A stretch of DNA of 64,000 nucleotides from Pontixanthobacter rizhaonensis (GTDB lineage Bacteria > Pseudomonadota > Alphaproteobacteria > Sphingomonadales > Sphingomonadaceae). The stretch lies in NCBI RefSeq assembly GCF_012972675.1, contig NZ_JABCRE010000002.1:857001-921000 (forward strand), in the 5' to 3' direction. Each line of letters opens with the position of its first letter. The first letter of the stretch is position 1. The notes beneath the pieces were generated by a model. That model did not search any database and was not told where the DNA came from. It worked only from the letters and a program-made list of their open reading frames with translations. Position numbers and translations under genes: made by a program. Of the stretch, positions 19,112 through 38,041 are shown in pieces.

Positions 19112-19573
19112 ATGAATCGAAGCCGCTATGTAACCCGGCCAATTGATGCAACTGATCGAGCTATAATTGCCGCATTGGTCGGCAATGGCCGAATGACAGT
19201 TCGGGAGCTCGCAGAGCAAATTGGAATGTCCAGTCCAAGTGTTACCGAGCGCATTCACAAGCTTGAAGATGCAGGCGCGATCAGCAGCTATACTATCAAT
19301 GTAGATCCCACCGTATTTGGACTGGGTGTCACTGCACATGTGCGATTGTGCGCTTTGCCGGGAGAGGCAAAGAGAGTGGCGCAGATGCTGATCGACACTC
19401 CGGAAATAGTTGAAGCGGATCATGTTACTGGCGAAGACTGCTTTGTGGCAAAAGCCGTGGTTCATGATGTGCAGGAATTGGAAACCGTTATGGACCGCTT
19501 CTTGACATTCTCCTCGGTCGATACCGCAATCATTCAATCATCGACAGTGACTAAGCGCCTTCCAAAATTATAA
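19112..19573 (+). CDS. Lrp/AsnC family transcriptional regulator
   Basis: A 153-residue regulator. An N-terminal winged HTH (DRAIIAALVGNGRMTVRELAEQIGMSSPSVTERIHKLEDAGAI) is followed by a RAM ligand-binding domain (TAHVRLCALPGEAKRVAQML, VVHDVQELETVMDRF). Family members sense amino acids; here it lies at the edge of the metal block, between the virB operon and the MerR gene. Its target is not evident; the divergent virB operon is one candidate. Confidence 0.88.
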   Translation: MNRSRYVTRPIDATDRAIIAALVGNGRMTVRELAEQIGMSSPSVTERIHKLEDAGAISSYTINVDPTVFGLGVTAHVRLCALPGEAKRVAQMLIDTPEIVEADHVTGEDCFVAKAVVHDVQELETVMDRFLTFSSVDTAIIQSSTVTKRLPKL

Positions 19574-19618
19574 AATTGCTTGTTTTTAGATGTGTGAGTG
19601 AGCTCCACGCTCAATCGC

Positions 19619-20017
19619 TCAGGACAATGGTCGAGGTGCCAATGTTTCGATTATCTTGCAATCTCCCACTGTGCCATGTTGGCAAGCGCTGATTACGCGG
19701 TCTAACTCTGAGCGAAGCGTGGTCAGGTCGTCGATTTTCTGGTCAATTTTGGCAAGATGCCGGCTCGCAATATCATCAACGGCTTCACAGGATTGCTCTT
19801 TATCGTCCGACAGGGTGAGCAATTCCGACAGAGCTTTTAATGTGAACCCGAGATCACGGGCGCGGCGAATAAATGATAGTCTCGCCAGATGGTCGCTTCC
19901 ATAGTCGCGATAGTTGGCGGTGGTCCTCGCCGCTCGCGGCAAGAGGCCAATTTTCTCGTAATAGCGGACGGTTTCCACCTTCGTTCCCGTGGCTTTTGCC
20001 AATGCTCCAATTTTCAT
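19619..20017 (-). CDS. MerR family heavy-metal regulator (CadR/PbrR/ZntR type)
   Basis: A 132-residue activator: MerR winged HTH (MKIGALAKATGTKVETVRYYEKIGLLP), a dimerisation helix, and cysteines at 77, 112 and 120 in QSCEAVDD and ACQHGTVGDCKIIE. That set is typical of regulators for divalent Zn, Cd or Pb rather than Cu(I) or Hg. It is divergent from a CDF-like transporter, and a classic MerR operator lies between them (20021-20051). By family mechanism the metal-bound protein twists the 19-bp spacer to activate transcription. Confidence 0.9.
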   Translation of the reverse strand: MKIGALAKATGTKVETVRYYEKIGLLPRAARTTANYRDYGSDHLARLSFIRRARDLGFTLKALSELLTLSDDKEQSCEAVDDIASRHLAKIDQKIDDLTTLRSELDRVISACQHGTVGDCKIIETLAPRPLS

Positions 20018-20020
20018 CGC

Positions 20021-20051
20021 TTGACCCTATAGTTACTACAGGGTGCATAAC
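20021..20051 (+). promoter_or_regulatory. MerR-type promoter and operator
   Basis: TTGACC (-35, 20021-20026) and CATAAC (-10, 20046-20051) are 19 bp apart, the overlong spacer of MerR promoters. A dyad with arms ACCCTATAGT (20024-20033) and ACTACAGGGT (20035-20044), 9 of 10 symmetric, fills the spacer. It faces the CDF-like gene. Confidence 0.85.
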
Positions 20052-20084
20052 TAACTGCGAATCGAAATAAGTCTAGGAAAAACA

Positions 20085-20735
20085 ATGTCTGACAATTGCT
20101 GTGCCGACGCCACCGGGGCTGGAGATGCGCTTAACGATAAGCGTTGGCGGCGTATCCTTTGGATTGCCCTCATCCTCAATGCCGCGATGTTTTTCATCGA
20201 AATGGGTGCTGGCGTTCAAGCGGACTCGCGCGCGCTCCAAGCTGATGCGCTCGATTTTTTCGGTGACGCTGCCAATTATGCGATCAGTCTTGGCGTGGCC
20301 GGTATGGCGCTGGCTTGGCGATCTCGGGCGGCCATGTTCAAGGGAATAACAATATTGCTGTTCGGTCTATTTGTAATGGGATCTGCATTATGGGCCTTTG
20401 CAAATGGCACGGCCCCGGTAGCAGAAACGATGGGCATCGTCGGAACCTTGGCGCTGCTAGTCAATGTGGGTGTGGCGTTTATGCTCTATCGCTACCGGAC
20501 AGGTGACGCGAATATGCGCTCCGTTTGGTTATGTTCGCGCAACGACGCCATCAGCAACGTCGCCGTCATTGCTGCTGCTTTGGGCGTGGCTGGCACAGAC
20601 AGTGCGTGGCCCGATCTCGGTGTGGCTGCAATCATGGCAGGTTTGGCAATTACCAGCGGGATTCAGATAATTTGGCAGGCGCGCGATGAATTGAAATCAG
20701 GCGCGGAACCAAGCGTTTCGGTGGGAGAAGCCTGA
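20085..20735 (+). CDS. CDF-like cation transporter, short form
   Basis: A 216-residue membrane protein with about six hydrophobic segments. Cation-diffusion-facilitator-like motifs are LQADALDFFGDAANYAISLG in the second segment and CSRNDAISNVAVIAAALG in the fifth; both differ from the usual HxxxD pairs. There is no C-terminal cytoplasmic metal domain. The N-terminus carries Cys-Cys (SDNCCADA). It lies directly behind the MerR-type promoter, so induction by a divalent metal such as Zn, Cd or Pb is expected. It overlaps the next gene by one base. Confidence 0.8.
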   Translation: MSDNCCADATGAGDALNDKRWRRILWIALILNAAMFFIEMGAGVQADSRALQADALDFFGDAANYAISLGVAGMALAWRSRAAMFKGITILLFGLFVMGSALWAFANGTAPVAETMGIVGTLALLVNVGVAFMLYRYRTGDANMRSVWLCSRNDAISNVAVIAAALGVAGTDSAWPDLGVAAIMAGLAITSGIQIIWQARDELKSGAEPSVSVGEA

Positions 20736-21298
20736 TGGTTGACGCTATCCCGCTTATTGCATTGGTCGTGATCTTCATTGCATCCTTGTGGCGCGGTCGT
20801 TCTGTATCGCGGTCAAGCGGAGACAATGCTTGGGCATTCGGATCAGCCAAAGGCAGGCAGAGATTAGCGGGTGCTGCCTTTGCAATCAGCATCGTCATTC
20901 TGGCTTTTGCTGCTGCCGAAGCGGCGCTAAGGTCAGAAAGCGCCTACGCACTGATTGGCGCGCTAATCTCCATTGCGGGCGGAGCGATTGTCATTGTCGC
21001 GCAAATCCAGATGGGCCGTGCATGGCGGGTTGGTGTTCGTGAGGGCGATGCTCCGCTTTTCGTCCAGCATGGGCTTTTCCGCTTCAGCCGCAATCCAATA
21101 TTTGTAGGAATGATGCTGATTGGGCTTGGTATCGCCGTGACTGCAAATAGCTGGTGGGCCTGGGCGGCGTTGCTAGCATTTGTTCTTACTTGCCGCGAGC
21201 AAGTAAGGATTGAAGAGGCGCATCTAAACGATAGCTTTGGAGTAGCATATATCAGTTTCAAGAATGATGTTCCGCGCTGGATTGGAATTCCAAAATGA
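20735..21298 (+). CDS. Isoprenylcysteine carboxyl methyltransferase-like membrane protein 1
   Basis: A 187-residue protein of the ICMT/PEMT superfamily. Four or five hydrophobic segments are followed by the C-terminal signature RFSRNPIFVGMMLIGLG and EEAHLNDSFGVAYISFKNDVPR, the SAM-binding half of these methyltransferases. Such proteins often accompany metal efflux genes in alphaproteobacteria, but their substrate is unknown. The start overlaps the CDF-like gene and the end overlaps the next gene (ATGA). Confidence 0.82.
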   Translation: MVDAIPLIALVVIFIASLWRGRSVSRSSGDNAWAFGSAKGRQRLAGAAFAISIVILAFAAAEAALRSESAYALIGALISIAGGAIVIVAQIQMGRAWRVGVREGDAPLFVQHGLFRFSRNPIFVGMMLIGLGIAVTANSWWAWAALLAFVLTCREQVRIEEAHLNDSFGVAYISFKNDVPRWIGIPK

Positions 21299-21861
21299 CC
21301 GCGGAATTTTGGTCAACACTCCTCTTTTCTGTATCGCTGGTCTCAGTAAGCATCATTCTGATCTTGTCGCTCTTTGCCACAATGCGAGAAGGTTTTCAGT
21401 TTTGGCCGCCACCGGAACGGAAAAGCTGGCAGCATCGCAGTTTCCTGATTTTGTTTAGGTGTTTCGTTTATCCGCTTATCGTTTTGTCTGCGTTGGAGTT
21501 TGATATTGGCCACTCAGCGATGCGCTATGCCGCCATTGTGATCGGTATTGTTTTACTTTTTGCCGGTTTTGGTCTGGCAATTCGGATTACACTGCAAATG
21601 GGTTGGCGTAATGCCTTTGGGGAAAAGCGCGGACTGGTAACAGACGGGTATTTCTCCAGAAGCCGCAACCCGGTTTATGTCGCTACTTGGCTCGGGCTTA
21701 TCGGTTGGTCGGTGGTCGCAAATTCTGTTCTGGTTTCGATACTTCTTGGGTTTTGGGCCGCACTCTACCTGTTTGCGCCGCTTTTCGAGGAACCCTGGCT
21801 TGAAAAAATGTATGGCGATGAATTCCGCGAATACACACTTCGCGTGCGCAGGTTTCTGTGA
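21295..21861 (+). CDS. Isoprenylcysteine carboxyl methyltransferase-like membrane protein 2
   Basis: A 188-residue paralogue of its upstream neighbour. It has the same fold and signatures (GYFSRSRNPVYVATWLGLIGW and EEPWLEKMYGDEFREYTLRVRRF), but the first half differs strongly, so the pair is not a recent duplication. Four or more hydrophobic segments are visible. Translation is coupled to the upstream gene by ATGA. The substrate is unknown; a role in modifying lipids or proteins during metal stress is speculation. Confidence 0.82.
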   Translation: MTAEFWSTLLFSVSLVSVSIILILSLFATMREGFQFWPPPERKSWQHRSFLILFRCFVYPLIVLSALEFDIGHSAMRYAAIVIGIVLLFAGFGLAIRITLQMGWRNAFGEKRGLVTDGYFSRSRNPVYVATWLGLIGWSVVANSVLVSILLGFWAALYLFAPLFEEPWLEKMYGDEFREYTLRVRRFL

Positions 21862-21968
21862 AAATGGCACATGCAATCCGCCTGTTTTTGCCGCCGTCCA
21901 CTAAACACGAAAGGGGCCAGGCGGCTTTCGTGTTGCCGTTCCAAAATTCGACTGCTATCTGCTTTAAT

Positions 21969-22304
21969 ATGCTCAGTAGATTTGCATCTTTGCTTGTTAT
22001 ATTTGCACTGTTGTTTGGAACAGTCATTTTACCGTCGGTAGCGCATGCTGCTGCGCCGGAGCATAGTGAAGAATCGTTTGAACGGCACGAGCATGACGCA
22101 GGTGCTAATTCCGACAAGCAAGACGATGAAGGCGATCAGCCATGTCATACTGTCACGCATCATCATTGCAGTTTTGCTTTAAGGGTAGAGTCCAATGCTG
22201 TAAATTCGCAGCTGTCGGCCAAGGGAAGCAAAACCCGTCCTGTGTCCTCCGTCGCCAAGCCTTCTTGGTCGCAGGCTCCGCCAACCCAACCTCCTTCAGC
22301 CTGA
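21969..22304 (+). CDS. Small His-rich secreted protein before czcC
   Basis: A 111-residue protein from the ATG at 21969: a signal peptide (MLSRFASLLVIFALLFGTVILPSVAHA) and an acidic, His-rich mature part with CHTVTHHHCSFAL, a likely metal-binding cluster. The frame is open back to a GTG at 21858 that touches the upstream stop, so a longer 148-residue start is possible, but the signal peptide argues for 21969. It lies between the methyltransferases and czcC; small proteins of this kind are common in czc loci. Confidence 0.6.
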   Translation: MLSRFASLLVIFALLFGTVILPSVAHAAAPEHSEESFERHEHDAGANSDKQDDEGDQPCHTVTHHHCSFALRVESNAVNSQLSAKGSKTRPVSSVAKPSWSQAPPTQPPSA

Positions 22305-22373
22305 ACCCTCGATTTTGCAGGGCGCTATAGCTGCGCCTCGCCAATTTGACTTTGGTTCAGGAGTTTTCTTATC

Positions 22374-23612
22374 ATGTATATGTCATTGCGCGCAGCCTTT
22401 CTGGCAGGCGCATTTGCGGTCGTCGGAACGGCATGTCTGGCCGAACCTATATCGCTTGATCAGGCGGTCGATAAAGCAATAGAAGCCGCGCCAATTCTCA
22501 AGGCAAACGAAGCTGCCATTGCGGCCGCTGAGGCCGGTAAACGGCAAGCTGATGTGCGCCCAAATCCGGTTGTATCTGCTGAAACTGAGAACTTTATCGG
22601 TACTGGGCCGGTTGATATATTTCGCCAGGCTGAGGTGACGTTTACTTATAGTCAACAGATCGAGCGCGGCGGAAAACGCGCAGCCCGCATCGGCTTGGGC
22701 GAAAGTGAAGTAGAACTGGCAAAAGCTCGGGCTCGTGCGGCACGTCTTGATATAGCGGCTAATGTTCAGCGCGCGTATATCGACGCACAGATCGCCGCAA
22801 CGGTTGTTCGGATCGCATCTGAACGGCTAGGCATTGAGCGTGAACTTCAGCGGGAGGCCTTGCGCCGTGTTCGCGGGTATAAAGACCCGCTGTTCGTCGA
22901 AACCCGGTCAGCCGCGCGTGTTGCCGAGGCTGAACTTGGGCTTCGCGAAGCGGAATTCCGTCTGCGAAACGCACAAAATGCTCTTGCAGCCTATTGGGGC
23001 GGGGAAGGGCAAACTGTTGAAGTCGCGCCCGATTTAAATCAACAGGGTTTGGCTACTACAGGTCTAGCGGATGCAGACACTGCTGTGGCCGAGGCCGCAA
23101 TAGATCGCTCCCGCTCTGCCGTCGTCGTCGAACAAACACGGGCAACGCAGGATTACACGATCACCGGCGGATTGCGCTATTTGCGGGATACCGACGATGT
23201 TGCGGCGGTAGCAGGAATTTCAATTCCTATTGGCCGGTTTGACAAAAACCAAGGGAATATTGAGCGCGCACAAGCCGAACGGCGGCAGACGGAATTTTTG
23301 GCTGAGGCTGACCGTCTTGCGCGACTGCGACGTTTGGCTTCGCTTCGCGCCGATTCAGATGCTGCGCTCACACGGGCAAACGGTATCATTACGGATGTTT
23401 ATCCAAAGACCGTGAGGACGCTGGAGCAAGTACGCGAGGGATATAATCGCGGCGGCTTCCGGTTTTCAGATATCGAAGACGCCTCGAACGCTATCATTGC
23501 AGCTCAGGAAAGCTGGCTCGATGCAATGAACCGCTACCGCGACCTGCAACCCGAAATTGACCGCTTGACCGGACGCTTTGACGTTGCCGCAGCGGAGGAG
23601 TCTACCCAATGA
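22374..23612 (+). CDS. czcC: CzcC-like outer-membrane efflux protein
   Basis: A 412-residue TolC/OEP family channel: signal peptide MYMSLRAAFLAGAFAVVGTACLAEP, then the repeated coiled-coil helices of OEP domains (ISLDQAVDKAIEAAPILKANEAAIAAAEAG ... YNRGGFRFSDIEDASNAIIAAQESWLDAMNRYRDLQ). It would form the outer exit of the CzcCBA complex. It ends with ATGA overlap on czcB. Confidence 0.88.
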   Translation: MYMSLRAAFLAGAFAVVGTACLAEPISLDQAVDKAIEAAPILKANEAAIAAAEAGKRQADVRPNPVVSAETENFIGTGPVDIFRQAEVTFTYSQQIERGGKRAARIGLGESEVELAKARARAARLDIAANVQRAYIDAQIAATVVRIASERLGIERELQREALRRVRGYKDPLFVETRSAARVAEAELGLREAEFRLRNAQNALAAYWGGEGQTVEVAPDLNQQGLATTGLADADTAVAEAAIDRSRSAVVVEQTRATQDYTITGGLRYLRDTDDVAAVAGISIPIGRFDKNQGNIERAQAERRQTEFLAEADRLARLRRLASLRADSDAALTRANGIITDVYPKTVRTLEQVREGYNRGGFRFSDIEDASNAIIAAQESWLDAMNRYRDLQPEIDRLTGRFDVAAAEESTQ

Positions 23613-24853
23613 AGAAACTGATCATCACCGCCGTTATGGCACTCGCGCTCCCATTAAGTCTTTCTGCCTGCGGCAGTGGCGATGGCAACGAGCACTCCGA
23701 AGAAGGGCACGACGAAAACGAAGAAGCTGCCAAGGGTCCGAACGGCGGAAGGTTGCTGACGGACGGAGATTTTGCCGTTGAAGTCACCATATTTGAGGAG
23801 GGGCAAAACCCGCAATTCCGGGTCTATGCAAGCCGTGATGGCAAGCCGGTTGATCCCAAAACTGTAAAACTCTCCATCATTCTAAAGCGCTTAGGCGGCG
23901 CAATTGATACATTTGCTTTCAAACCCGAGGGCAAATATCTGTTGGGACTAGGCGTCGTTACAGAACCGCACAGCTTCGATGTAGAGGTGGTTGCTTCCGA
24001 AAATGGCAAGCGGCATGTCTGGAAATATTCCAGTCCCGAAGGACGCACCAGAATAACGCCTGATGCAGCAAAAGCAGGCGGTATCGAAGTTATGACTGCT
24101 GGCCCTGCCACCATCGGCGATACGCGCGAGCTCTATGGCACGGTGGAACTTGCCGTTACCGGACGTTCAGAGATTAGGGGCCAGTTTCCAGGGAGGATCG
24201 TCTCAGTAACGAAAAATGTGGGCGATGCTGTAAAACGCGGTCAATTGATTGCCCGGATCGAATCTAGCGAAAGTCTGCAAACCTACCCTGTTTACGCAAC
24301 GGCCAGCGGTGTCATTGCCGAGCGTAACGGCAATGCCGGGGATGTTACGGGCGACCGCGCGCTTTATGTCATCACCGATCCAGCGCAGACGACAGTGGTG
24401 TTCAACATTTTCCCGAAAGACTTGGGAGCTATCCGTCCCGGCATGAGGATCATGGTTGAAACACAAGATGGAAAGCCCATCGCGCAGACGACGCTTGGTG
24501 ATTACCTTCCGGAAGGAAACCAGCAGGCAGGAACTGCCCTCATGCGAGCGAATATCCCCAATCGCACAGGAGCGCTACGCCCAGGCATGGCGCTGCGGGG
24601 ACGGGTGGTTATCAATGCGGTTAATGTCCCGCTTGCGGTGAAAACCGAAGCCATTCAGCCGTTTCGTGACTTCAAGGTCGTCTTTGCAAATTACGGGCAG
24701 GATTATGAGGTGCGAATGCTCCAGATAGGCCGATCATCATCAGAATGGACGGAAATATTGGGCGGGCTGGAAATCGGCACGCCCTATGTCGCCAAAGGTT
24801 CTTTTCTCGTTCGCGCCGACATCGAAAAGTCCGGCGCGAGCCACGACCATTGA
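23609..24853 (+). CDS. czcB: CzcB-like periplasmic adaptor lipoprotein
   Basis: A 414-residue membrane fusion protein. The N-terminus is a lipoprotein signal (ALPLSLSACGS), then a His/Glu-rich stretch (NEHSEEGHDENEE) that may bind metal. A CzcB-type N-terminal beta domain follows, then the split biotinyl/lipoyl domain (ITKNVG-like VSVTKNVGDAVKRGQLIARIES and VIAERNGNAGDVTGDRALYVITD) and beta barrel. Its tail ends GASHDH. It links CzcA and CzcC. Confidence 0.88.
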   Translation: MKKLIITAVMALALPLSLSACGSGDGNEHSEEGHDENEEAAKGPNGGRLLTDGDFAVEVTIFEEGQNPQFRVYASRDGKPVDPKTVKLSIILKRLGGAIDTFAFKPEGKYLLGLGVVTEPHSFDVEVVASENGKRHVWKYSSPEGRTRITPDAAKAGGIEVMTAGPATIGDTRELYGTVELAVTGRSEIRGQFPGRIVSVTKNVGDAVKRGQLIARIESSESLQTYPVYATASGVIAERNGNAGDVTGDRALYVITDPAQTTVVFNIFPKDLGAIRPGMRIMVETQDGKPIAQTTLGDYLPEGNQQAGTALMRANIPNRTGALRPGMALRGRVVINAVNVPLAVKTEAIQPFRDFKVVFANYGQDYEVRMLQIGRSSSEWTEILGGLEIGTPYVAKGSFLVRADIEKSGASHDH

Positions 24854-28030
<3,177 letters not shown>

Positions 28031-28153: not shown

Positions 28154-29077
28154 TCAACTCATCGGCGACATCATTCCTGCTATTGCCACAAGTCCGAGGA
28201 CCGCGATTGCCAGAGTGATTTCGATTGTTAAGCTGACGCGCAAAGCCGCCAAACTTGTGGCTGGGTCTGCGTCCAAGCTGGCTTGTGCTGCTGCCCGGCG
28301 TCTGCCGATTAGCGCGTTGCGGCCACCGCACAGCAGCATAAGCGCGACGAGCGCCACCTTTATAGCCAGCAACTGGCCATAGCCGGTCATAAGCACCGTG
28401 CCGCTGTTAAAGAGCCCGAATATCATGTGTGCATTGATAAGCCCGGTGACAACAACCACTGATACCAAAGTAATCCCAAGGGGCGCAAAGCGGTGCATCG
28501 CGATTAAGAGTGACTGGGATTGCACGGCGTCGATGTATCGGTGCGCTCTAATCGTCAAATGCACAAACCATCCGATCGCTCCAAGCCAAAGTCCCGCAGC
28601 AAGCAAATGAAGTGCATCATTAATTCTGTGGAAGAGACCAGCACTGCCCTCAAGCGCCGCAGCATGTCCGCTCCATGCTAGGGTTGCTATTGCAAACCCA
28701 TAACAGACCGCGGCGACAATTAGGGCGAGGCGTGAACGATGTCTGAGCAGTAACGCTATCAAGGCTGCCGATAACAGCGCTATACGCGCGGCAAATGCCC
28801 AGCCGATGCTGGTTGTAGTGACCATCAATTCTACAGTTGCCCAATCGGTCAACCAAACCGGCTGCCCCATCATTGCCGCGATGCTTAGTAACATCAAAGC
28901 GGATGAAACAAGCGGTGCGAATATGGCCAAGCCCAACAGAGCTCCATTAAACCACGGATATTGATTTTCGGAAGAAAGCCAACGCAGACCGATAAGCCGG
29001 TAGGCTGTAAGCCCAAACAACCCAAGTAAGGCGGCATAGTGCAGGAATCGAAGCAGGATTTGCGGCCAATCATCCAT
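28154..29077 (-). CDS. copD: CopD-like copper membrane protein
   Basis: A 307-residue polytopic protein with about eight hydrophobic segments and the CopD signature FHRINDALHLLAAGLWLGAIGWFVHL, with conserved histidines. In Pseudomonas, CopD works with periplasmic CopC to move copper across the inner membrane. It is last in the leftward copA-B-C-D unit, 9 bases after copC. Confidence 0.87.
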   Translation of the reverse strand: MDDWPQILLRFLHYAALLGLFGLTAYRLIGLRWLSSENQYPWFNGALLGLAIFAPLVSSALMLLSIAAMMGQPVWLTDWATVELMVTTTSIGWAFAARIALLSAALIALLLRHRSRLALIVAAVCYGFAIATLAWSGHAAALEGSAGLFHRINDALHLLAAGLWLGAIGWFVHLTIRAHRYIDAVQSQSLLIAMHRFAPLGITLVSVVVVTGLINAHMIFGLFNSGTVLMTGYGQLLAIKVALVALMLLCGGRNALIGRRRAAAQASLDADPATSLAALRVSLTIEITLAIAVLGLVAIAGMMSPMS

Positions 29078-29086
29078 TTGACTGAC

Positions 29087-29482
29087 CTAGCGCACCGTAA
29101 AGTTCACAGTGCCTTTCATCCGGTGGCCATCAGCTCCTGCGGCTTGCCAGCGCACTTCATACGTGCCCGTTTGCAGAGGCTTCCGAAGTGACAAGGTGAT
29201 TGTTTTGTTGTTGTTAGACCAAGCCGAGGTAAAATTCCGGATCACCATCGGTTGGTGATTTTTCATGCCAGGCATGGCGGTCATAACGATGCTGGCTGCA
29301 ACTGTCGGGGGCAACAATGCTTCACTGAAAATCAGGGTCACGCTGCGAGGGCGGGCAACTGCTGAGCCATCTGCTGGTGTTGAGGCTGTGACCCGAGTGT
29401 GGGCCTGCGAAGCTACCGGAATTGACGCAGCCGATATCGCAATCGCAAAAGCTCCGATCTGTAAAATATTTCGAAAGTTCAT
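29087..29482 (-). CDS. copC: CopC periplasmic copper-binding protein
   Basis: A 131-residue protein with a signal peptide ending SQAHTRV, so the mature N-terminus is the His that CopC proteins use for Cu(II). Typical parts are STPADGSAVARPRSVTLIFSEAL, a Met-containing MTAMPGMKNH and the C-terminal GTYEVRWQAAGADGHRMKGTVNFTV. It lies between copB and copD, the classic order. Confidence 0.92.
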   Translation of the reverse strand: MNFRNILQIGAFAIAISAASIPVASQAHTRVTASTPADGSAVARPRSVTLIFSEALLPPTVAASIVMTAMPGMKNHQPMVIRNFTSAWSNNNKTITLSLRKPLQTGTYEVRWQAAGADGHRMKGTVNFTVR

Positions 29483-29511: not shown

Positions 29512-30627
29512 TCAAAACCAGAAACGGATGCCAACGACATAATTGGTAACGCTGTTGTCTTCGCCGCGCGCGGAAGCATAATCTGCACTACCGCCTACTC
29601 GCCAGCTTTGCTCGACGCCGATATAGGGCGCGAATTCACGCTTTAGTTCGTAGCGCAGTCGGAGCCCAAGTTCGACGTTATCAATCCCTGCGCCGATCCC
29701 GAGTTCGGGAATATCCTGAGCGGACAGGTTAATTTCTGTTCGTGGTTGCAGGATTAGCCGCTGCGTAATTTTTTGGTCGAGTTCAGCCTCGAACCGGGCT
29801 GTGAGGTCGCCGCGATGCGAAAGAAATATCGCTCCATCAATCTCAAACATATAGGGCGCAACGCCCTGAATGCCGATTACCGCATGGGTTGTATCGGGGC
29901 CGGCAATATCTTGGCGTACGCCTGCTTGCAGATCGAAAAAGGGGGCAATCGCGCGTGAGTATAGGGCCTGAATTTCGGCATCCTCTACCGGCTCGCCAAA
30001 GCTGCCTTCGCCTTCGCTCTTGAACCAGAACTTGCTAGTGGTTCCGCCATAATAACCTTGAATATCCCATAGATACCCTTCCGAACCTTGCCGAAACTGC
30101 ACTTCAGCGCGGTCGGCTTGGAACCAAAAAAGCGGATAATCGCCGTGGGATTTCTGCAAATCCTCACGCGATGCACGCATGGCATCCGCGCCCCAGATTG
30201 CATCCGCAGCGCGCGGAGGGCTGGTAGGCGCATCCGCTGGCGGCGGCGTTTCCATTTCTGGACCGGGCGAAGCTGCACCTTTCATCTGATCATGATCCAT
30301 AGCGTCATGATCCATTGTAGAATGGTCCGCCTTGTCCTGCTCCGATGCGTCATGGTTCATCGAGCTATGATCCTTCGAGCCGTGATCCATGGCCGAATGA
30401 TCCATATCTTCCATTCCGGACGGTTGGTCTGGTTCAGCCGGAGCTGGCATGACGTGGCCAGCGTGCGGGTCGATGGGTTTTGCCTGCGGGGCAGATGACG
30501 GGGCGGGCTCGGGTGAAGTCGCTGGGGTCGCGTGGCCCTGATGCGCATCATGATCCTTCGCTTGCGCCGATACAGGTAGCATCGCCGCTGCCAAAGCGGG
30601 CAAAATGATGACTGAACTTCGGCTCAT
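29512..30627 (-). CDS. copB: CopB copper resistance outer-membrane protein
   Basis: A 371-residue protein with a signal peptide (MSRSSVIILPALAAAMLPVSAQA), a Met/His/Asp low-complexity region with MDHSAMDHG and MDHDAMDHDQM repeats, then a C-terminal beta barrel of the CopB family (DIQGYYGGTTSKFWFKSEGEG, LQAGVRQD, PYIGVEQSWRVGG). The ATG at 30627 is chosen because it overlaps the copA stop (ATGA) and begins the signal peptide; the frame is open further upstream. It would store or export copper at the outer membrane. Confidence 0.92.
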   Translation of the reverse strand: MSRSSVIILPALAAAMLPVSAQAKDHDAHQGHATPATSPEPAPSSAPQAKPIDPHAGHVMPAPAEPDQPSGMEDMDHSAMDHGSKDHSSMNHDASEQDKADHSTMDHDAMDHDQMKGAASPGPEMETPPPADAPTSPPRAADAIWGADAMRASREDLQKSHGDYPLFWFQADRAEVQFRQGSEGYLWDIQGYYGGTTSKFWFKSEGEGSFGEPVEDAEIQALYSRAIAPFFDLQAGVRQDIAGPDTTHAVIGIQGVAPYMFEIDGAIFLSHRGDLTARFEAELDQKITQRLILQPRTEINLSAQDIPELGIGAGIDNVELGLRLRYELKREFAPYIGVEQSWRVGGSADYASARGEDNSVTNYVVGIRFWF

Positions 30628-32480
30628 GAGGCCGCTCCAGGTCCAGCGACCGTCACTGTCTGCATCATCCCGCCATGCATATGGTAAAGGAGATGGCAGT
30701 GGAACGCCCAATCGCCCGCCTCGTTTGCTGTCAAATCAAACTGCGCGCTGGCTCCAGGCTGCACGATCATGGTGTTTTTGCGGGGTTGCAATGCAGGTGA
30801 CTGCCCGTTCACCATTTCAAAGAACATTCCGTGCAAATGGATCGGGTGCGCCATCATCGTGTTGTTGATAAGCTTGACACGGACCCGCTCGTTCCAAGCG
30901 AAGCCGATGGGCACGTCACTGACTGCGCTATACATGCGTCCGTCGAACGACCACATATAGCGTTCCATGTTTCCGGTCAGATGCAACTCAAGCAAGCGTG
31001 AGGGCTCACGGGTGTCCGTGTTAGCATCGCGGGCAACCAGCATCCGGTAATTTAGAACGCGGTGATCGACATCGCGCAAGCCAAGCCCCGGATCACCCAT
31101 TTTGTCTACGGGTGCCATTGATACCATATCGACACCCGGACCAATTGCGACATCGGGCGGCAGGAGAGACGTATCCCGCATATTCATGCCATCCATACTC
31201 ATACCTGCCATACTCATACCTGCCATACCGTCGATCTCGGCTGACGCGGCAGGTTTTTTCTTGCCGTGATCCATTTTGCCATGATCCATAGTTTCTTTGG
31301 TCTTTGGTTCATGATTCATGCCGTCCATTTTATCGCCGCTGCCATGATCCATTTCACCATGATTCATGCCCATATCGGCCATCGTCAGCAGAGGTGGGTC
31401 GCGCAATGCCGGAACTGCGGCGCGGGCGCCGGGGCGGCTTGCCAGAGTAGCGAGTGCCATTCCGGAGCGGTCCATAGATTCAGCAACGATGCTGTAAGCT
31501 TCTGCGCCGCTTGGTTCGACAATCACGTCATAGGTCTCGGCAGTGCCGATCTGAAACTCATCAACCTCAACCGGGCGCACGGCCTGACCATCAGTGGCGA
31601 CAACGCTCATGGAGAGACCCGGAATGCGGACATTGAAGAAAGACTGAGCCGAACCGTTGATTACGCGTAGTCGCACCCGTTCACCCGCGCGGAATAGATA
31701 TTCCAATCCTTCGGATGGTCCGCGACCATTGGCTAGGAAGGTGTAAGTGGGCGCGCCAATATCGGCAATGTCGGTTGGCATCATCCGCATTTTCGCCCAC
31801 ATACGCCGCTCCTCTGCGGTCATCGGGTAATCATCGGTCATCGTATTTTGCTGGCGGTTGAAATAGCCTTCGCCAGTACGAAGCCGGTTCATAACAAAAT
31901 GAGGATCGAGCGTCGTAAAATCGCTCAGTAGCAATATATAATCACGATCGGCTTTAATCGGGTCGCCGCCGCGCGGCTCAATGATCATCGGCCCGTAATG
32001 GCCAGACTGTTCCTGCAGTCCCGAATGGCTATGATACCAGTAAGTGCCCGATTGCCGGATCGGAAATTCATAAACGAAGGTTTCTTTCGGCTTTATGCCT
32101 GGAAAGCTAATGCCGGGAACGCCATCAAACTGAAATGGCAACAATAGGCCGTGCCAGTGGATGGAGCTGTCGACACCAAGATTATTGGTGACATTGAGAC
32201 GGACATTCTGTCCCTCTTTCAGCCGAATAAGTGGTCCGGGAACACTACCATTGACAGCAATCCCAGGGCCTCGTCGCCCTTCGACAATCCGGTGACCGCT
32301 CCCAATCGAAAGATCAATAATTTCGCCGTTAACCTCGTCAAAACCGGCCGGGATAAGAGTGTCACCGCCGCCATGCACGCTGTGCCCTTGCGCCCATGCC
32401 GGAATAGCGGCTGCCATGTAGCCAAAGCCCGCTGCGCCAGCGCCTACGGTCAAAAAATTTCTTCGATTAAGTTTAGTCAT
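30624..32480 (-). CDS. copA: CopA multicopper oxidase
   Basis: A 618-residue periplasmic oxidase that turns Cu(I) to the less toxic Cu(II). A twin-arginine signal (NRRNFLTVGAGAAGFG) leads. Copper-site motifs are HWHG (SSIHWHGLLLPF), YHSHSG, HPIHLHG, and HCHLLYHMHGGMM. A central Met/His/Gly-rich insert (MNHGEMDHG..., MAGMSMAGMSMDGMNM) is typical of CopA of copper-resistant bacteria. The ATG at 32480 is used because it starts the Tat signal. The 55 residues that the open frame could add upstream have no signal and run into the sigma gene. An ECF-like promoter ends about 32 bases before this start. Confidence 0.94.
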   Translation of the reverse strand: MTKLNRRNFLTVGAGAAGFGYMAAAIPAWAQGHSVHGGGDTLIPAGFDEVNGEIIDLSIGSGHRIVEGRRGPGIAVNGSVPGPLIRLKEGQNVRLNVTNNLGVDSSIHWHGLLLPFQFDGVPGISFPGIKPKETFVYEFPIRQSGTYWYHSHSGLQEQSGHYGPMIIEPRGGDPIKADRDYILLLSDFTTLDPHFVMNRLRTGEGYFNRQQNTMTDDYPMTAEERRMWAKMRMMPTDIADIGAPTYTFLANGRGPSEGLEYLFRAGERVRLRVINGSAQSFFNVRIPGLSMSVVATDGQAVRPVEVDEFQIGTAETYDVIVEPSGAEAYSIVAESMDRSGMALATLASRPGARAAVPALRDPPLLTMADMGMNHGEMDHGSGDKMDGMNHEPKTKETMDHGKMDHGKKKPAASAEIDGMAGMSMAGMSMDGMNMRDTSLLPPDVAIGPGVDMVSMAPVDKMGDPGLGLRDVDHRVLNYRMLVARDANTDTREPSRLLELHLTGNMERYMWSFDGRMYSAVSDVPIGFAWNERVRVKLINNTMMAHPIHLHGMFFEMVNGQSPALQPRKNTMIVQPGASAQFDLTANEAGDWAFHCHLLYHMHGGMMQTVTVAGPGAAS

Positions 32481-32511: not shown

Positions 32512-32538
32512 GTTACGTGAGCAGCAGCCTTTGCCCTC
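32512..32538 (-). promoter_or_regulatory. ECF-like promoter of copABCD
   Basis: On the minus strand GAGGG (32538-32534), 16 bp, then CGTAAC (32517-32512). The same elements precede the DUF411 gene and, with 17 bp, cnrY. It lies between the sigma gene end and the copA start. Confidence 0.65.
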
Positions 32539-32598: not shown

Positions 32599-33177
32599 TT
32601 AGCCTTCGAACTTTTCCAATTTTTCTCGAAGCCGATTTCTCGCACGGTAAATTCGCGTCTCTATCGCTTTTTCTGTGGTGCCCAGAATTGTCGCGGCTTC
32701 TGCGTGGCTTTGGCCATCGAAAGTGACGAGTAGCAAGGCTTCCCGGAGCCGAGCGGGTAGGTTGGAGATCTCTTTTTGTACAAATTGCAGGGACTGAACT
32801 GCCTCTGCGCTTTCGTGCTGATCCGGGCTATCCAAAGCGACTTGTTCGACCTCATTGCCCTGCCCGAAATCAAAAAGCTTCATGACTTTTCGTTTGCGAA
32901 GCTGATCCCTGCATTTGTTTAAAACAATGCGCGTTATCCACGGACCAAAGGGAAGCGATTGATCAAACTGGCCAAGTTTAAACCAGGCCGCCGCCATTGC
33001 TTCTTGAACCGCATCTTCAGCGTCGGAATTGTTACCCATTGTTCTGCGGGCAAGATTGGTCATTCTTGGCTCATGTCGGCGCATCAGCACATCAAATGCC
33101 TGCCGCTTCCCCGAATGTGCCAGCGCTATCAGCGCGCCATCTGGTTGTTGCGCGTCATCATGCGCTGATAGCGTCAT
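32599..33177 (-). CDS. cnrH: ECF sigma factor, CnrH-like
   Basis: A 192-residue sigma-70 family factor with region 2 (FDVLMRRHEPRMTNLARRTMGNNSDAEDAVQEAMAAAWFKLGQF) and region 4 (LPARLREALLLVTFDGQSHAEAATILGTTEKAIETRIYRARNRLREKL). The gene order Y-X-H upstream, the size and the neighbours match the cnr/ncc regulatory set of Cupriavidus. It would direct RNA polymerase to the GAGGG-16/17-CGTA promoters nearby when released from the anti-sigma protein. The start overlaps the sensor gene by ATGA. Confidence 0.85.
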   Translation of the reverse strand: MTLSAHDDAQQPDGALIALAHSGKRQAFDVLMRRHEPRMTNLARRTMGNNSDAEDAVQEAMAAAWFKLGQFDQSLPFGPWITRIVLNKCRDQLRKRKVMKLFDFGQGNEVEQVALDSPDQHESAEAVQSLQFVQKEISNLPARLREALLLVTFDGQSHAEAATILGTTEKAIETRIYRARNRLREKLEKFEG

Positions 33178-33614
33178 TCCTGATTGGCGGTCAGCGCATT
33201 GCCGACACGGGCATCAAATGCTTTTTGTTGCTCATCAGTAAGCAGACGGCGCATGTTGAAAATATGCTCGACAGTTGCTTTTTGCAGAGCGCCCATTTTC
33301 TCATGCACCGCTTCAATAGCCAAGCTGACTTTGGGACCATATTCATGCTCAGCTTCCATCGCAGCCGCAAGGTCAGCATTCGCCGCCCGGAGCGATAATT
33401 CCAGCGATTTCTGTTTTACCGCAAAATTCGCTTCAAGCGCCTCAAGCTGTTTCAGCTGACTATCGGTCAGATCAAGTTCGTCATGTACGAAACTGTGAAT
33501 GCCTTGCGTTTCGACATCCCGCTGCGACCAGTAATTGGCGCAATAAGAACCTAGCCAACCCGCCGCAAGCGCGAGGGCCAGCAAAATTATGATACGAACT
33601 GGCCCGATTTTCAT
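33174..33614 (-). CDS. cnrX: CnrX-like periplasmic metal sensor
   Basis: A 146-residue protein anchored by an N-terminal helix (IIILLALALAAGWLG) with a helical periplasmic domain of the heavy-metal sensor family. Its candidate ligands are His40, His44, Glu61, His117 and Met121 (HSFVH, ALE, HIFNM), the same residues at the same spacing as the Ni/Co ligands of Cupriavidus CnrX (His42, His46, Glu63, His119, Met123). So the metal site appears complete, though the neighbours are copper genes. It overlaps the genes before and after by ATGA. Confidence 0.85.
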   Translation of the reverse strand: MKIGPVRIIILLALALAAGWLGSYCANYWSQRDVETQGIHSFVHDELDLTDSQLKQLEALEANFAVKQKSLELSLRAANADLAAAMEAEHEYGPKVSLAIEAVHEKMGALQKATVEHIFNMRRLLTDEQQKAFDARVGNALTANQE

Positions 33615-33889
33615 TGCGATATACTCAACAAGCCAGCGGGTGAGTAATCTGGTCCATCAGTGAGGGAGCTAAAGCCTGTCTGCGCCATAACTGGTTGTTC
33701 AGCGGTGCCAAAGCCTGCTCCGATTGCGACCAGAAACATGACTCCAGCAAGAGCGTTGCTTTTATAAGCGCTACGTCGTTCTTGGATTTCGCCGATGCGG
33801 GACCAAACTGAGCTACTAAAATCCGCTGGCAACGGCTCAATGCCATCTGCCTTCAGTGTGTTCAAAATATTGTCCAGATTGCTGGTCAT
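33611..33889 (-). CDS. cnrY: CnrY-like anti-sigma protein
   Basis: A 92-residue protein with a short cytoplasmic part (DNILNTLKADGIEPLPADFSSSVWSRIGEIQERR), one membrane helix at about residues 45-61 (NALAGVMFLVAIGAGFG) and a short periplasmic tail. Size and layout fit CnrY, which holds CnrH at the membrane until CnrX binds metal. Sequence identity to CnrY is not obvious by eye; the call rests on order, size and topology. It is the first gene of the Y-X-H unit. Confidence 0.72.
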   Translation of the reverse strand: MTSNLDNILNTLKADGIEPLPADFSSSVWSRIGEIQERRSAYKSNALAGVMFLVAIGAGFGTAEQPVMAQTGFSSLTDGPDYSPAGLLSISQ

Positions 33890-33920: not shown

Positions 33921-33948
33921 AATACGCGGCGGAAGTCATCTACCCCTC
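33921..33948 (-). promoter_or_regulatory. ECF-like promoter of cnrYXH
   Basis: On the minus strand GAGGG (33948-33944), 17 bp, then CGTATT (33926-33921), 31 bases before the cnrY start. It is back to back with the DUF411 promoter, and the two GAGGGG elements form an inverted pair. Confidence 0.62.
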
Positions 33949-33970: not shown

Positions 33971-33997
33971 GAGGGGTCAATGCAATTAGCCCGTAAC
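33971..33997 (+). promoter_or_regulatory. ECF-like promoter of the DUF411 unit
   Basis: TTGAGGG (GAGGG at 33971-33975), 16 bp, then CGTAAC (33992-33997). The two elements and spacing equal those before copA on the other strand. Confidence 0.65.
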
Positions 33998-34123: not shown

Positions 34124-34591
34124 ATGCTGACTAAAATGAGGAAAGTAATTACGCATCGAACAGCGGGCACGGCTTTGCTTCTCTCGCTTGCAGCCTGCAC
34201 GACTGCGGCGCAGGCTGCTCCGCTTGTCATGTTCCGTGATCCGGGCTGCGGTTGCTGCGAGAAATGGGCCGAGCATATTGAAACGAATATGAAGCAGGAC
34301 GTCGAAACACGGAACAGCAATGATATGGCCGCTGTTAAAGACGCAAATGGTGTGCCGGGGGCGCTCCGATCCTGTCATACCATGATTGTCGAGGGATATG
34401 TTATTGAGGGGCACGTGCCCGCTGAAGCTATTGCCAAATTGCTGCGGGAAAAGCCTGCCGGAGTGAAAGGCCTTGCCGTTGCAGGAATGCCAGTCGGTTC
34501 ACCCGGTATGGAGTACCAGAATCAAACACAGCCTTATCAAGTGATCGCTTTTGGCGAGAGCGGCCAGCGCGTTTTCGCCAGTTACAATTAA
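34124..34591 (+). CDS. DUF411 periplasmic metal-binding protein
   Basis: A 155-residue protein with a signal peptide (RTAGTALLLSLAACTTAAQAA) and the DUF411 core: VMFRDPGCGCCEKWAEHI, CHTMIVEGYVIEGHVPAEAI and GLAVAGMPVGSPGME. The CGCC and later Cys are likely Cu ligands. The family is found in copper and silver resistance clusters. The ATG at 34124 follows AAGGAT; the frame is open from 33980, and ATGs at 34109 and 34136 are alternatives. A lipobox-like LAAC in the signal leaves lipidation open. The next gene follows 27 bases later. Confidence 0.82.
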   Translation: MLTKMRKVITHRTAGTALLLSLAACTTAAQAAPLVMFRDPGCGCCEKWAEHIETNMKQDVETRNSNDMAAVKDANGVPGALRSCHTMIVEGYVIEGHVPAEAIAKLLREKPAGVKGLAVAGMPVGSPGMEYQNQTQPYQVIAFGESGQRVFASYN

Positions 34592-34618
34592 TCACTCCAG
34601 CCCCCGAAAGGAAATACG

Positions 34619-34954
34619 ATGACTAAATTTGCAATTTTAATGAGTAGCTTTGCATTGATCACAGCGGGACCACTGTTGGCCCATGAACATGGAGCCGATA
34701 AGTCTGGCGAGCATAAATGTGAAATGATGAAAGACGGCAAGAAAATGTCCGGCATGATGATGAAGGATACCGAGGGCAAAATGTCATGCAAGATGATGGA
34801 TCACTCGAAGATGGACCACAGCAAGATGGATCACTCTAAAATGCCAGCGCCTGAAGCGAATGACCAAGCGCAACCACCCATAGATCATTCAACGATGGAC
34901 CATTCGAAGATGGATCATAGCAAGATGGAACCCAAGAAAGACACACCCGAATAA
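34619..34954 (+). CDS. Met/His-repeat periplasmic copper-binding protein
   Basis: A 111-residue protein with a signal peptide (MTKFAILMSSFALITAGPLLA) and a mature part made almost only of metal ligands: HEHGADKSGEHKCEMM, then MDHSKM units in two runs (34796-34843 and 34883-34926). The same MDHS/MDHG motif is in CopA and CopB of this cluster. It probably buffers copper in the periplasm. It shares the DUF411 operon and the ECF-like promoter. Confidence 0.8.
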   Translation: MTKFAILMSSFALITAGPLLAHEHGADKSGEHKCEMMKDGKKMSGMMMKDTEGKMSCKMMDHSKMDHSKMDHSKMPAPEANDQAQPPIDHSTMDHSKMDHSKMEPKKDTPE

Positions 34955-34999
34955 GCAGATAATCGGCTCGGGGCTTCACTTTGCGAGGCTCCGACCCGC

Positions 35000-35272
35000 C
35001 TATTTTCCCATCTTGCCGAACAAGTTCACCAACTCGGCAATTTTCTCTTTCTGGTCAGCCTTGCTACCGGAAGTCAGAGCTTCCTCGACGCAATGATTGG
35101 TGTGGATCTCCAGAATTTTCATTTTGGTAGAGCGCAGGGCGGCTTCCATTGCGGAAAATTGCTGGAGGATATCGATACAATAGCGATCATCTTCCATCAT
35201 TTTAGCTATTCCGCGCGCCTGACCTTCGATCTTTCGCATCCGCACGATTTCTTTGGTGAATTTGTCTGTCAT
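35000..35272 (-). CDS. csoR: CsoR-like copper-sensing repressor
   Basis: A 90-residue all-helical repressor of the CsoR/RcnR family: RMRKIEGQARGIAKMMEDDRYCIDILQQFSAMEAALRSTKMKILEIHTNHC. Cys32, His57 and Cys61 have the spacing of the Cu(I) ligands Cys36, His61 and Cys65 of Mycobacterium CsoR, so copper is the likely signal. It is divergent from the DUF5676-ATPase unit and a CsoR-type operator overlaps that unit's promoter. Confidence 0.88.
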   Translation of the reverse strand: MTDKFTKEIVRMRKIEGQARGIAKMMEDDRYCIDILQQFSAMEAALRSTKMKILEIHTNHCVEEALTSGSKADQKEKIAELVNLFGKMGK

Positions 35273-35330
35273 GTTGTCCTTATGCCAAATTTTTGAGCGT
35301 GATCAATCGAAAGAGATGGCCGCATCAACC

Positions 35331-35370
35331 TTGACACTAAACCATCATGCTACTATACCCCCCTATAGTA
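35331..35370 (+). promoter_or_regulatory. Sigma-70 promoter with CsoR-type operator
   Basis: TTGACA (35331-35336), 17 bp, TATACC (35354-35359). Over the -10 lies a perfect dyad with arms TACTATA (35351-35357) and TATAGTA (35364-35370) around CCCCCC, the AT-flanked C-tract form of CsoR/RcnR operators. Repression until copper binds CsoR is expected. Confidence 0.82.
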
Positions 35371-35400
35371 TATATCGCTGATGATCAAGAGGAGCTAGAA

Positions 35401-35694
35401 ATGGCGCATGTTTCAAACCGCACTCAAATCCTTGTCTGGGGCTGGACGCTGAGCCTGTTTTTGCTTCTCAGCTACCTCATCTGCATTGGCTTCGGTCTTT
35501 TGGCACCGCAATCTATGCACATGCATGAAGCTTGGGCACCTTGGTTGCCGGGTTTCGAATGGCTGACTTTGCAGGGATTTCTTGCAGGGGCGGTTGGTAG
35601 CTTTCTCTATGGTTGGTATATTGCATTGTTGGTTATCCCGCTGCGCTCGTGGATAAGCCGCAAGGTTGCAGGTGCTGATCATGTCGAAGCATGA
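35401..35694 (+). CDS. DUF5676 family membrane protein
   Basis: A 97-residue protein with two membrane segments ([20 protein letters not shown] and [22 protein letters not shown]) and the DUF5676 middle block [17 protein letters not shown]. The family is of unknown function and is frequent in copper clusters. The ATG at 35401 follows AGGAGC; a start at 35347 would lie inside the operator. It overlaps the ATPase gene by 14 bases. Confidence 0.82.
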
Positions 35695-38041
35695 TGCCGG
35701 GACTGACAAATCGTGCTGTTGTAAAGATAAAGAGGCTTCTGCCGGGATCGTAAAAGATCCCGTGTGCGGCATGGATGTCGATCCGAGCAAGAGCGAGCAT
35801 CATGCACAGCATGACGGGCATGATTATCATTTCTGTTCAGCCGGATGCAAAACCAAATTTGTCGCCGACCCCGAACATTATCTCACCGGAAAGCGTCAAG
35901 ACGTAGCAGATAATCTGCCAGCTGGCACGATCTACACCTGTCCAATGCATCCGGAAATCCGTCAAGAAGGGCCGGGTTCCTGTCCGATCTGTGGGATGGC
36001 ACTCGAACCCGAGACGTTTAGTCTCGATACCGGCCCCGATCCCGAATATCTGGATATGCTCAAGCGTTTCTGGGTCAGCGCGGTGTTCTCCATCCCACTG
36101 TTTATTTATGCAATGGGCGACCTTATTCCGGGCAAGCCGTTTGAAGATTTATTTGAGCCGGGAGTATCGCAATGGTTGCAGCTCTTGCTGGCATCACCGG
36201 TAGTTCTGTGGGGCGCATGGCCGTTTTTTGTGCGCGGCGTGAACTCGCTCAAAACCATGAACCTCAATATGTTCACGCTCATTGGGCTTGGCGTGGCGGT
36301 TGCCTATGGCTTCAGTCTGGTCGCAACACTCTTTCCAAGCATTTTTCCGGAAGCATTTCGCGGCCATGATGGCGGTGTGGCTGTCTATTACGAAGCAGCG
36401 GCTGTCATTACGACCCTGGTATTATTGGGCCAAGTGCTGGAACTGAAAGCACGCGGACAGACATCAAGTGCGTTGCGCGCACTGCTCGAACTAGCACCGC
36501 CAGTCGCATTGCGCGTCGGTGCGGATGGATCGGAAGAGGAAATATCGCTCGATCAAGTGCAGAGCGGTGACCGCCTGCGTGTTCGTCCAGGCGACAAGGT
36601 TCCTGTTGATGGCACTATCGCCAAGGGCTCCAGTACGATTGATCAAGCAATGATCACGGGCGAACCAATACCGGTTGCTAAAGCCGAAGGTCATGGTGTC
36701 ACTGGCGGAACGGTCAACCAGACTGGCAGCTTTATCATGACCGCCGAACGCGTGGGTAAAGACACGCTTCTCGCCAAAATCGTCCAGATGGTCGCCGAAG
36801 CGCAGCGCAGCCGTGCGCCTATCCAGAAACTTGCTGATACGGTTGCGGGCCTTTTTGTGCCTGCTGTGGTTCTGATCGCTATTGCGACATTCATTATATG
36901 GTCGATTTGGGGTCCAGAACCGGCGCTGGCCTATGGTTTGGTCAACGCAGTCGCAGTCCTCATCATCGCCTGTCCTTGTGCGCTTGGCCTTGCCACTCCG
37001 ATGTCTATCATGGTTGGCACCGGCAAGGGCGCGCAAAACGGTATCTTGATCAAGAACGCCGAGGCGCTCGAAACTCTGGAAAAGATCGATACCATCGTCG
37101 TCGACAAAACCGGGACATTGACAGAGGGCAAGCCCAAGCTGGTTTCGGTCGAACCTGAAAATGGTTTTGATGGCGACGAAATGCTGGCGCTGGTTGCCGC
37201 TATTGAAATGGCGAGCGAACATCCGCTGGCAGCCGCAATTGTGACCGGCGCAAAGGACAAGGGACTTTCATTCGAAGCAGCAACAGACTTCCAGTCGGTC
37301 ACCGGCGAAGGGGTTGAAGCCAGCGCAGGCGGTAAGCGCGTCGCCATCGGCAATGAAAAAATGATGGACCGGCTTGGTGCCACCAGTGCGGAGCTGATTG
37401 CCAAGGCGCAGGATGGCCGATCGCAGGGACAAACGGTGATGTTTGTGGCTGTCGATGGTAAACCTGCTGGTCTGATTGGTGTCGCCGATCCGATCAAACC
37501 GACCACAAAAGAAGCGATCAAGGCGCTGCACAAAGCCAATATCCGAGTAGTTATGCTTACTGGCGATGCAGAAGCTACCGCGCAAGCTGTTGGCAAGATG
37601 ATTGGCATTGATGAAATCCACGCCAATGTGTCACCCGAAGACAAGCACCGGGTCATCAGCGAGCTACAAGCGGCGGGTAAGATGGTTGCAATGGCAGGAG
37701 ATGGCATCAATGACGCTCCCGCTCTCGCCAAAGCCGATGTTGGAATTGCGATGGGCACTGGCACCGACGTGGCAATGGAAAGCGCAGGGATCACGCTGGT
37801 AAAAGGTGATCTTGGCGGCATCGCCAAAGCCCGCCACCTCAGTCAACTAACAATGGGTAATATCCGGCAGAACCTGTTCTTTGCGTTCATCTATAACGGG
37901 CTTGGCGTGCCGGTTGCGGCAGGCATTCTCTATCCGTGGTTCGGCATCTTGCTCAGCCCGATGATAGCAGCGGCAGCAATGAGCCTGTCGTCTGTCTCTG
38001 TAATCGCCAACGCCTTGCGCTTGCGCCGCAAAGCGCTGTGA
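35681..38041 (+). CDS. Copper-translocating P1B-type ATPase with YHS domain
   Basis: A 786-residue exporter. The N-terminus has no classic CxxC HMA domain; instead it carries Cys-rich CCCKD, a YHS domain ([31 protein letters not shown]) and a heavy-metal-binding domain ([26 protein letters not shown]). Then come the TGEP loop, membrane [10 protein letters not shown], phosphorylation DKTGTLT, SEHPLA (HP motif) and [23 protein letters not shown] and these domains fit Cu(I)/Ag(I) pumps (CopA/SilP). The ATG at 35681 is preferred over a TTG upstream. It is under the CsoR-type promoter. Confidence 0.93.

Follow-up and report, generated by a model that had tools for sequence, protein, structure and literature searches.

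The window analysed here is a stretch of 64,000 nt of Pontixanthobacter rizhaonensis (NZ_JABCRE010000002.1, positions 857,001–921,000, forward strand). Its minus strand carries, in this order, an anti-sigma-like gene, a gene for a CnrX-like sensor, an ECF sigma factor gene, copA, copB, copC and copD. The genes and predicted promoters of this locus and its surroundings are the following, in window coordinates:

22374–28030, plus strand: CzcCBA/CnrCBA-type RND system, convergent with copD
28154–29077, minus strand: copD, by family match (Pfam, NCBIfam or both)
29087–29482, minus strand: copC, by family match (Pfam, NCBIfam or both)
29512–30711, minus strand: copB (PF05275); the listed TTG start overlaps copA, and the true start is probably further on
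30624–32480, minus strand: copA, multicopper oxidase (TIGR01480), with its ATG at 32480
32514–32538, minus strand: predicted ECF promoter between the sigma factor gene and copA; 34 nt separate the end of its CGTA from the copA ATG
32599–33177, minus strand: CnrH-like ECF sigma factor of 192 aa; best PDB match CnrH (4cxf, E 3e-25)
33174–33614, minus strand: CnrX-like periplasmic metal sensor of 146 aa with an ATG start, identified by Pfam, phmmer, alignment and an AlphaFold2 model
33611–33889, minus strand: CnrY-like small anti-sigma protein of 92 aa, so named for its position and size and for a hydrophobic stretch in its sequence
33923–33948, minus strand: predicted ECF promoter in front of the operon of anti-sigma, sensor and sigma genes; 34 nt separate the end of its CGTA from the anti-sigma ATG
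33971–33995, plus strand: predicted ECF promoter facing the divergent DUF411 gene, by motif match
34124–34591, plus strand: divergent gene for a DUF411 protein, by family match; the start is perhaps 34109 or 34124
34619–34954, plus strand: Met/His-rich, apparently exported protein with a repeated DHSKM, downstream of the DUF411 gene, read from the sequence
35000–35272, minus strand: CsoR/RcnR-family repressor, by family match, a neighbour located between the Met/His-rich protein gene and the ATPase gene
35666–38041, plus strand: copper-type P-type ATPase, a neighbour of the locus

The preliminary description of this DNA had named copA-copB-copC-copD and a DUF411 protein as neighbours of the sensor, and these assignments were borne out by Pfam, NCBIfam or both. 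The sigma factor is 38% identical to CnrH over 181 aa. The anti-sigma ORF, which overlaps the start of the sensor gene by 4 bases, matched no Pfam or NCBIfam family; its size and place fit a CnrY, with little similarity to CnrY in the alignment.

The product of the sensor gene scored 50.6 bits against Pfam Metal_resist (PF13801, curated cut-off 29.2), and it was also above the cut-off for LTXXQ (PF07813, 38.5 bits vs. 24.3). When it was compared with the PDB by phmmer, only CnrX and NccX of Cupriavidus were found below an E value of 0.01 (from 3e-14 to 1e-12, with best values of 3e-14 for CnrX and 2e-13 for NccX), the best match to any other protein having an E value of 0.06. An AlphaFold2 model of the sensor (mean pLDDT 91.5), built on 42 window and locus proteins, was compared with the PDB by VIA-align. 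The nine best structural matches were all CnrX or NccX entries (Z 11.5–13.2, rmsd 1.9–2.6 over 105–110 residues; 1.9 over 108 for 2y3d), followed by a Z of 9.6 at rank 10, in a list from which the absence of a family is no evidence against that family. The LTXXQ match, a weak match to the Spy model and the presence of Spy and CpxP lower in the fold list would all fit a sensor of periplasmic stress (misfolding) of the Spy/CpxP kind instead of a metal sensor. However, CnrX and NccX outrank the other matches by a wide margin in sequence and clearly so in fold, and all five CnrX ligands are retained in 132 of the 135 aligned rows without pump linkage (the window sequence being counted twice), so that such a stress sensor appears very improbable.

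In the alignment with CnrX and NccX, residues H40, H44, E61, H117 and M121 of the sensor correspond to positions 42, 46, 63, 119 and 123 of CnrX, with a constant offset of 2, and the five are invariant across the three proteins. The coincidence in position and spacing that had been claimed for them at the outset therefore holds, and the product of 33174–33614 is confirmed as a CnrX homologue with the five site residues aligned; chance is not an issue, since the match is one of homology. Apart from Met123, these are positions that we take to be ligands in CnrX. They form the known Ni/Co set, and sequence alone does not tell whether copper is preferred. With respect to Met123, the excerpted text of PMC7689651 states that CnrX signalling requires it, and a title cited there calls it the sole methionine of CnrX. 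The PDB entries of CnrX contain Ni, Co, Zn and, by the title of 3epv (apo- and copper-bound), copper; this last entry, which is among the nine best matches of the sensor model, indicates that the CnrX fold is able to take copper.

For the analysis of gene neighbourhoods, we gathered 199 loci chosen for holding a sensor relative, closest first, which partly overlap (same genomes drawn from two collections, some stretches near-identical) and which contained 199 sensor-like ORFs, two of them in L120 and none in L131. For 179 of the 199 ORFs, a sigma factor gene and a copA in the same orientation were present, the mid-points lying no more than 4.5 kb apart. Four had a CnrCBA-like pump set downstream, and 16, three of them weak homologues, belonged to neither class; where copA and a pump were both downstream, the cop class had priority. 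The copA-linked form is the common form among the loci gathered, a family trait and not an oddity of a single host. Locus L120 (235–1758, genome G729) showed two divergent sensor copies at the start of the contig, both of neither class.

A motif, GAGGG-N15..18-CGTA, was first spotted by eye before the anti-sigma genes, and it was then counted in 86 representatives at 80% identity (73 cop-linked, 2 pump-linked and 11 of neither class). Within a fixed interval before the sensor, it was present on the operon strand in 72 of the 86, on the opposite, divergent strand in 62 and on both in 53, the forward and divergent counts not being independent of the way in which the motif was found; dinucleotide-preserving shuffles gave means of 0.45 and 0.15 for the operon and divergent strands, respectively. 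It was missing on the operon strand in 14 representatives and on both strands in five. The gap between the sigma factor gene and copA played no part in finding the motif, nor did cnrC of Cupriavidus metallidurans CH34. Such gaps, including those before a pump, contained it in 63 of 75 cases (62 of 73 cop-linked and one of two pump-linked; plain-shuffle mean 0.4), and in CH34 the same motif was found before cnrC (L195:9916), with 34 nt between CGTA and the cnrC ATG. Upstream of the CH34 cnrY, the exact motif was absent and a looser form was found, and another match, inside cnrB (L195:12149), was taken as chance. The excerpt of PMC9045368 places CnrH-dependent starts at distances of 24 and 25 nt upstream of cnrY and cnrC. 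In addition, a near-palindromic layout, TACGC...CCCTC...GAGGG...GCGTA, is common to many of the sequences ahead of the anti-sigma gene and reads as two predicted ECF promoters placed back to back.

Four motif sites were seen in the window, where 0.51 were expected, and none of 100 shuffles reached four; the match at 12291(−) was taken as chance. The site at 32538(−), before copA, is a weaker match than those at 33948(−) and 33971(+) and is missed by the strict pattern, so that weaker targets would also escape a genome scan made with it. In the 2.79 Mb of the own genome, this strict pattern matched at four places, two of them at the locus and the others in or beside unrelated ORFs. As a reversed control pattern gave five matches, a large motif regulon in this genome was rejected, and the two strict matches outside the locus look like chance. 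No site with up to one mismatch was found in 34500–35700, by the copper-type P-type ATPase. Overall, the motif is good evidence that the sigma factor would be CnrH-like in its choice of promoters, with its own operon, the genes from copA onwards and the divergent copper genes as predicted targets.

The sensor ORFs of neither class were inspected individually. Six of the 13 confident ones have a copA elsewhere in the stretch (L117, L132, L162, L163, L182 and L184). In L162, L163, L182 and L184, the copA frame is preceded by a motif site at up to about 400 bases; in L117 the site falls inside the stop-to-stop frame of copA and is less sure, and in L132 no site was found ahead of copA. As for the others, the sensor of L050 is at the contig end, L183 has copB directly after the sigma factor gene, and L164 and L179 have divergent copCD, with copA not found. 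In Erythrobacter longus (L042, 8724–20402), copA is absent from the fetched stretch and the sensor-sigma pair is followed by ORFs that, by their look, we take to be conjugation genes, with motif sites remaining on the divergent side. This locus was initially read as a sensor without copper genes, a reading that was set aside because the conjugation-like ORFs suggest that it was cut by a mobile element.

The intact Ni/Co ligand set could also belong to a true Ni/Co alarm that turns on copper defence, the metals co-occurring at contaminated sites. The preliminary description had left the choice between such an alarm and a site that reads copper. Our data favour the copper reading, given the linkage to copA in 179 of 199 ORFs and the motif before the copper genes, while only the four ORFs with a CnrCBA-like set, all of them with Glu and Ala at the two positions described below, are classed with a pump of that kind. 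Moreover, we know of no Ni/Co role for CopA or CopB. The alarm is, on these grounds, distinctly unlikely.

The same description had held that there is no Ni/Co pump nearby, which needs correction, because the RND protein of the system at 22374–28030 (plus strand) shares 47% identity with CnrA over 1073 residues, as well as the motif DFGLI[VI]DGAVIIVEN. What stands of that statement is that copABCD, and not a pump, is downstream of the sensor, the pump forming a separate convergent unit. No motif site with up to one mismatch was found in 19500–22400, ahead of this Czc/Cnr-like pump, and the idea that the sensor serves it was rejected for this reason. Of the 179 cop-linked sensor ORFs, 19 also have a CzcA/CnrA-like gene at a distance of up to about 9.5 kb; copper resistance is, consequently, not always the sole resistance nearby. 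Within 20085–28030 (plus strand), a CDF-like gene and two PEMT-family genes precede the czcCBA-type RND set.

Regarding distribution, a sensor match (E ≤ 0.001) was found in 152 of 396 genomes of the order of the window, its own genome included, and in 28 of 84 genera. Four other listed genomes of the same genus (G182, G252, G307 and G336) yielded no sensor homologue at this threshold, which suggests an accessory copper island. At E ≤ 1e-4, the sensor profile matched 17 of 398 genomes drawn from the phylum and nine of 385 drawn from the class; some relatives recur in these draws, and of the nine class matches four are weak (E above 1e-6). Sensors were present in 78 plasmid records, including 27 of Sphingobium, 19 of Sphingomonas, 10 of Novosphingobium and six of Cupriavidus. 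The pairing of sensor and copper genes appears to recur in sphingomonads and some other alphaproteobacteria. An exception is the order of G640, with a single match, pump-linked. Among 349 genomes of that order only G640 matched, and the pump-linked control group consequently stayed at four loci.

Residue conservation was analysed in 139 aligned rows, four of them pump-linked and two of them the window sequence (WINDOW and L001), after removal of the weak homologues L128, L129 and L130 (E about 1e-6 to 1e-5). The window sensor has His only at 40, 44, 90, 104 and 117 and, beyond residue 1, Met at 86, 107 and 121. In the part of the alignment examined, 14 columns are invariant, and the four pump-linked rows all depart from five of them (Q53, H104, M107, Q129 and F133). 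Every one of the 135 rows without pump linkage has H104 and M107, whereas Glu and Ala replace them in the four pump-linked rows and likewise in NccX (PDB sequence), which together make up the comparison group. H90 is conserved in 123 of the 135. F133 occupies the position of Tyr135 of CnrX, a residue that others mutated to Phe, by the title of 4wwb. The contrast is maintained within a single genome, G729, where the cop-linked paralogues L118 and L119 have His/Met and the pump-linked L121 has Glu/Ala.

In the tree, both pump-linked representatives fall into the same clade (100/100); the His/Met difference is, therefore, a single evolutionary split and not a repeated one, and it could be the consequence of lineage drift. 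In addition, other positions of the sensor are as invariant without being ligands, as the 14 columns show. In the AlphaFold2 model, H104 and M107 lie in the same long helix (94–123) as H117 and M121, about three to five helical turns away by helix register, and for this reason they may not touch the main site; by the same register, they should face the region of N79 and R76 of the preceding helix. The pair may form a second site, tune the first one or be structural.

Three of the sensors without pump linkage depart from the main site, and all of them retain H104 and M107. In Croceicoccus mobilis (L043, 10001–10438), Gln replaces the second His ligand (Q44) and His the Glu ligand (H61), which makes this natural variant a ready-made specificity variant. 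The cop-linked sensors L126 (9661–10101) and L127 (5283–5717) have Asp for the first His ligand (D40), and L126 also has Ile for the Met ligand (I121).

An alternative that bears on these residues is a broad divalent sensor, binding Cu(II), Ni(II) and Co(II) as CnrX would, with any of them triggering copper defence and H104/M107 being structural. The five ligands kept in nearly every row (132 of 135), the several metals present in CnrX entries (copper by the 3epv title) and the closeness of Czc/Cnr-like genes, both in the window and around the 19 cop-linked ORFs, are consistent with it. On the other side, CnrX discriminates between metals, as Zn binds without Met123 and gives no signal (excerpt of PMC7689651), the search around the Czc genes of the window yielded no motif site, and H104/M107 persist in the sensors with a changed main site (L043, L126 and L127). 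We regard a broad sensor as rather unlikely. Our estimates for the different explanations overlap, because this one also has a copper input.

We consider it probable that the locus encodes a CnrYXH-type transmembrane switch with copper as its output and, most probably, also as its input, the linkage to copA and the H104/M107 pair both suggesting a sensor that would prefer copper. According to this model, the sensor would be anchored in the inner membrane, its helical-hairpin domain reaching into the periplasm, and, together with the small anti-sigma protein, would hold the ECF sigma factor at the membrane. Metal would enter the H40/H44/E61/H117/M121 site, helped by the group-specific H104/M107, and the metal-bound complex would release the sigma factor, which would then drive three GAGGG-N15..18-CGTA promoters, those of its own operon, of copA-copB-copC-copD and of the divergent DUF411 and Met/His genes. 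Metal binding to CnrX loosens the hold of CnrY on CnrH, according to the excerpts of PMC7689651 and PMC4803752, and by analogy with CnrYXH the same release may take place here with copper as the signal. A more specific proposal, which we put forward as tentative, is that of an undescribed and widespread copper ECF pathway in which the CnrX site would be combined with an additional element specific for copper (H104/M107, possibly joined by H90 or M86), a Ni/Co fold retuned by two residues and governing a copper regulon of three promoters. Among the open-access literature matches listed, no title or abstract opening described a copper-linked CnrYXH system, and a search for homologues under the CnrX name gave one paper, which concerns cobalt and vitamin B12.

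If the copper reading is true, it would extend the CnrYXH mechanism to copper and suggest how many sphingomonads turn on copAB. It would also offer a natural comparison between two proteins that use one ligand set, the first for nickel and the second, probably, for copper. The motif permits regulon prediction across the order, and together with the two residues it makes the reading directly testable.

Compared with CnrYXH of Cupriavidus metallidurans CH34 (pMOL28), the window system shares the Y-X-H order before resistance genes, the five-ligand site of the sensor, a CnrH-like sigma factor beside it and, between the H gene and the resistance genes that follow it, the motif, at a CGTA-to-ATG distance of 34 nt for both cnrC and the window copA. 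In contrast, the CH34 system controls CnrCBA-T Ni/Co efflux and the downstream genes of the window are copABCD. CnrX has Glu106/Ala109, Tyr135 and Pro where the window family has His104/Met107, Phe133 and H90, and no divergent motif was found before the CH34 cnrY, whereas the window has one at 33971(+). The window system is thus a variant of CnrYXH but not a Cnr system in its output, as the pump is not its downstream operon. NccX of C. metallidurans 31A is alike in fold and ligands and differs in being, by its PDB name, a nickel-cobalt-cadmium resistance protein and in its Glu and Ala at the extra positions.

Other regulators of copper genes show more distant likenesses. CorE of Myxococcus is also an ECF sigma factor for copper genes, but it senses copper itself via Cys-rich parts (excerpt of PMC10141476), whereas the window sigma factor works with a separate periplasmic sensor; its 192 aa, read by eye, contain a single Cys and no Cys-rich extension, unlike the CxC linker and Cys-rich C-terminal extension of CorE. 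Copper induces SigAb of Acinetobacter, which has two anti-sigma proteins; for one of them, AabA, binding to SigAb in the manner of CnrY-CnrH is predicted, by the excerpt of PMC12153292, a paper in which the word CnrX is absent. CopRS two-component control is alike in using a copper signal for copABCD, an input that on the window side would be the likely one, and differs in the type of switch, which in the window is a complex of an ECF sigma factor with its anti-sigma protein. The CopRS genes of C. metallidurans lie next to copABCD (excerpt of PMC10304878). Five annotated cop-linked plasmid loci were viewed in this respect; in four of them (L031, L032, L034 and L199) no two-component pair was found beside copAB, and in the fifth, L033 of Sphingobium chlorophenolicum L-1, response-regulator genes were detected within about 5 kb.
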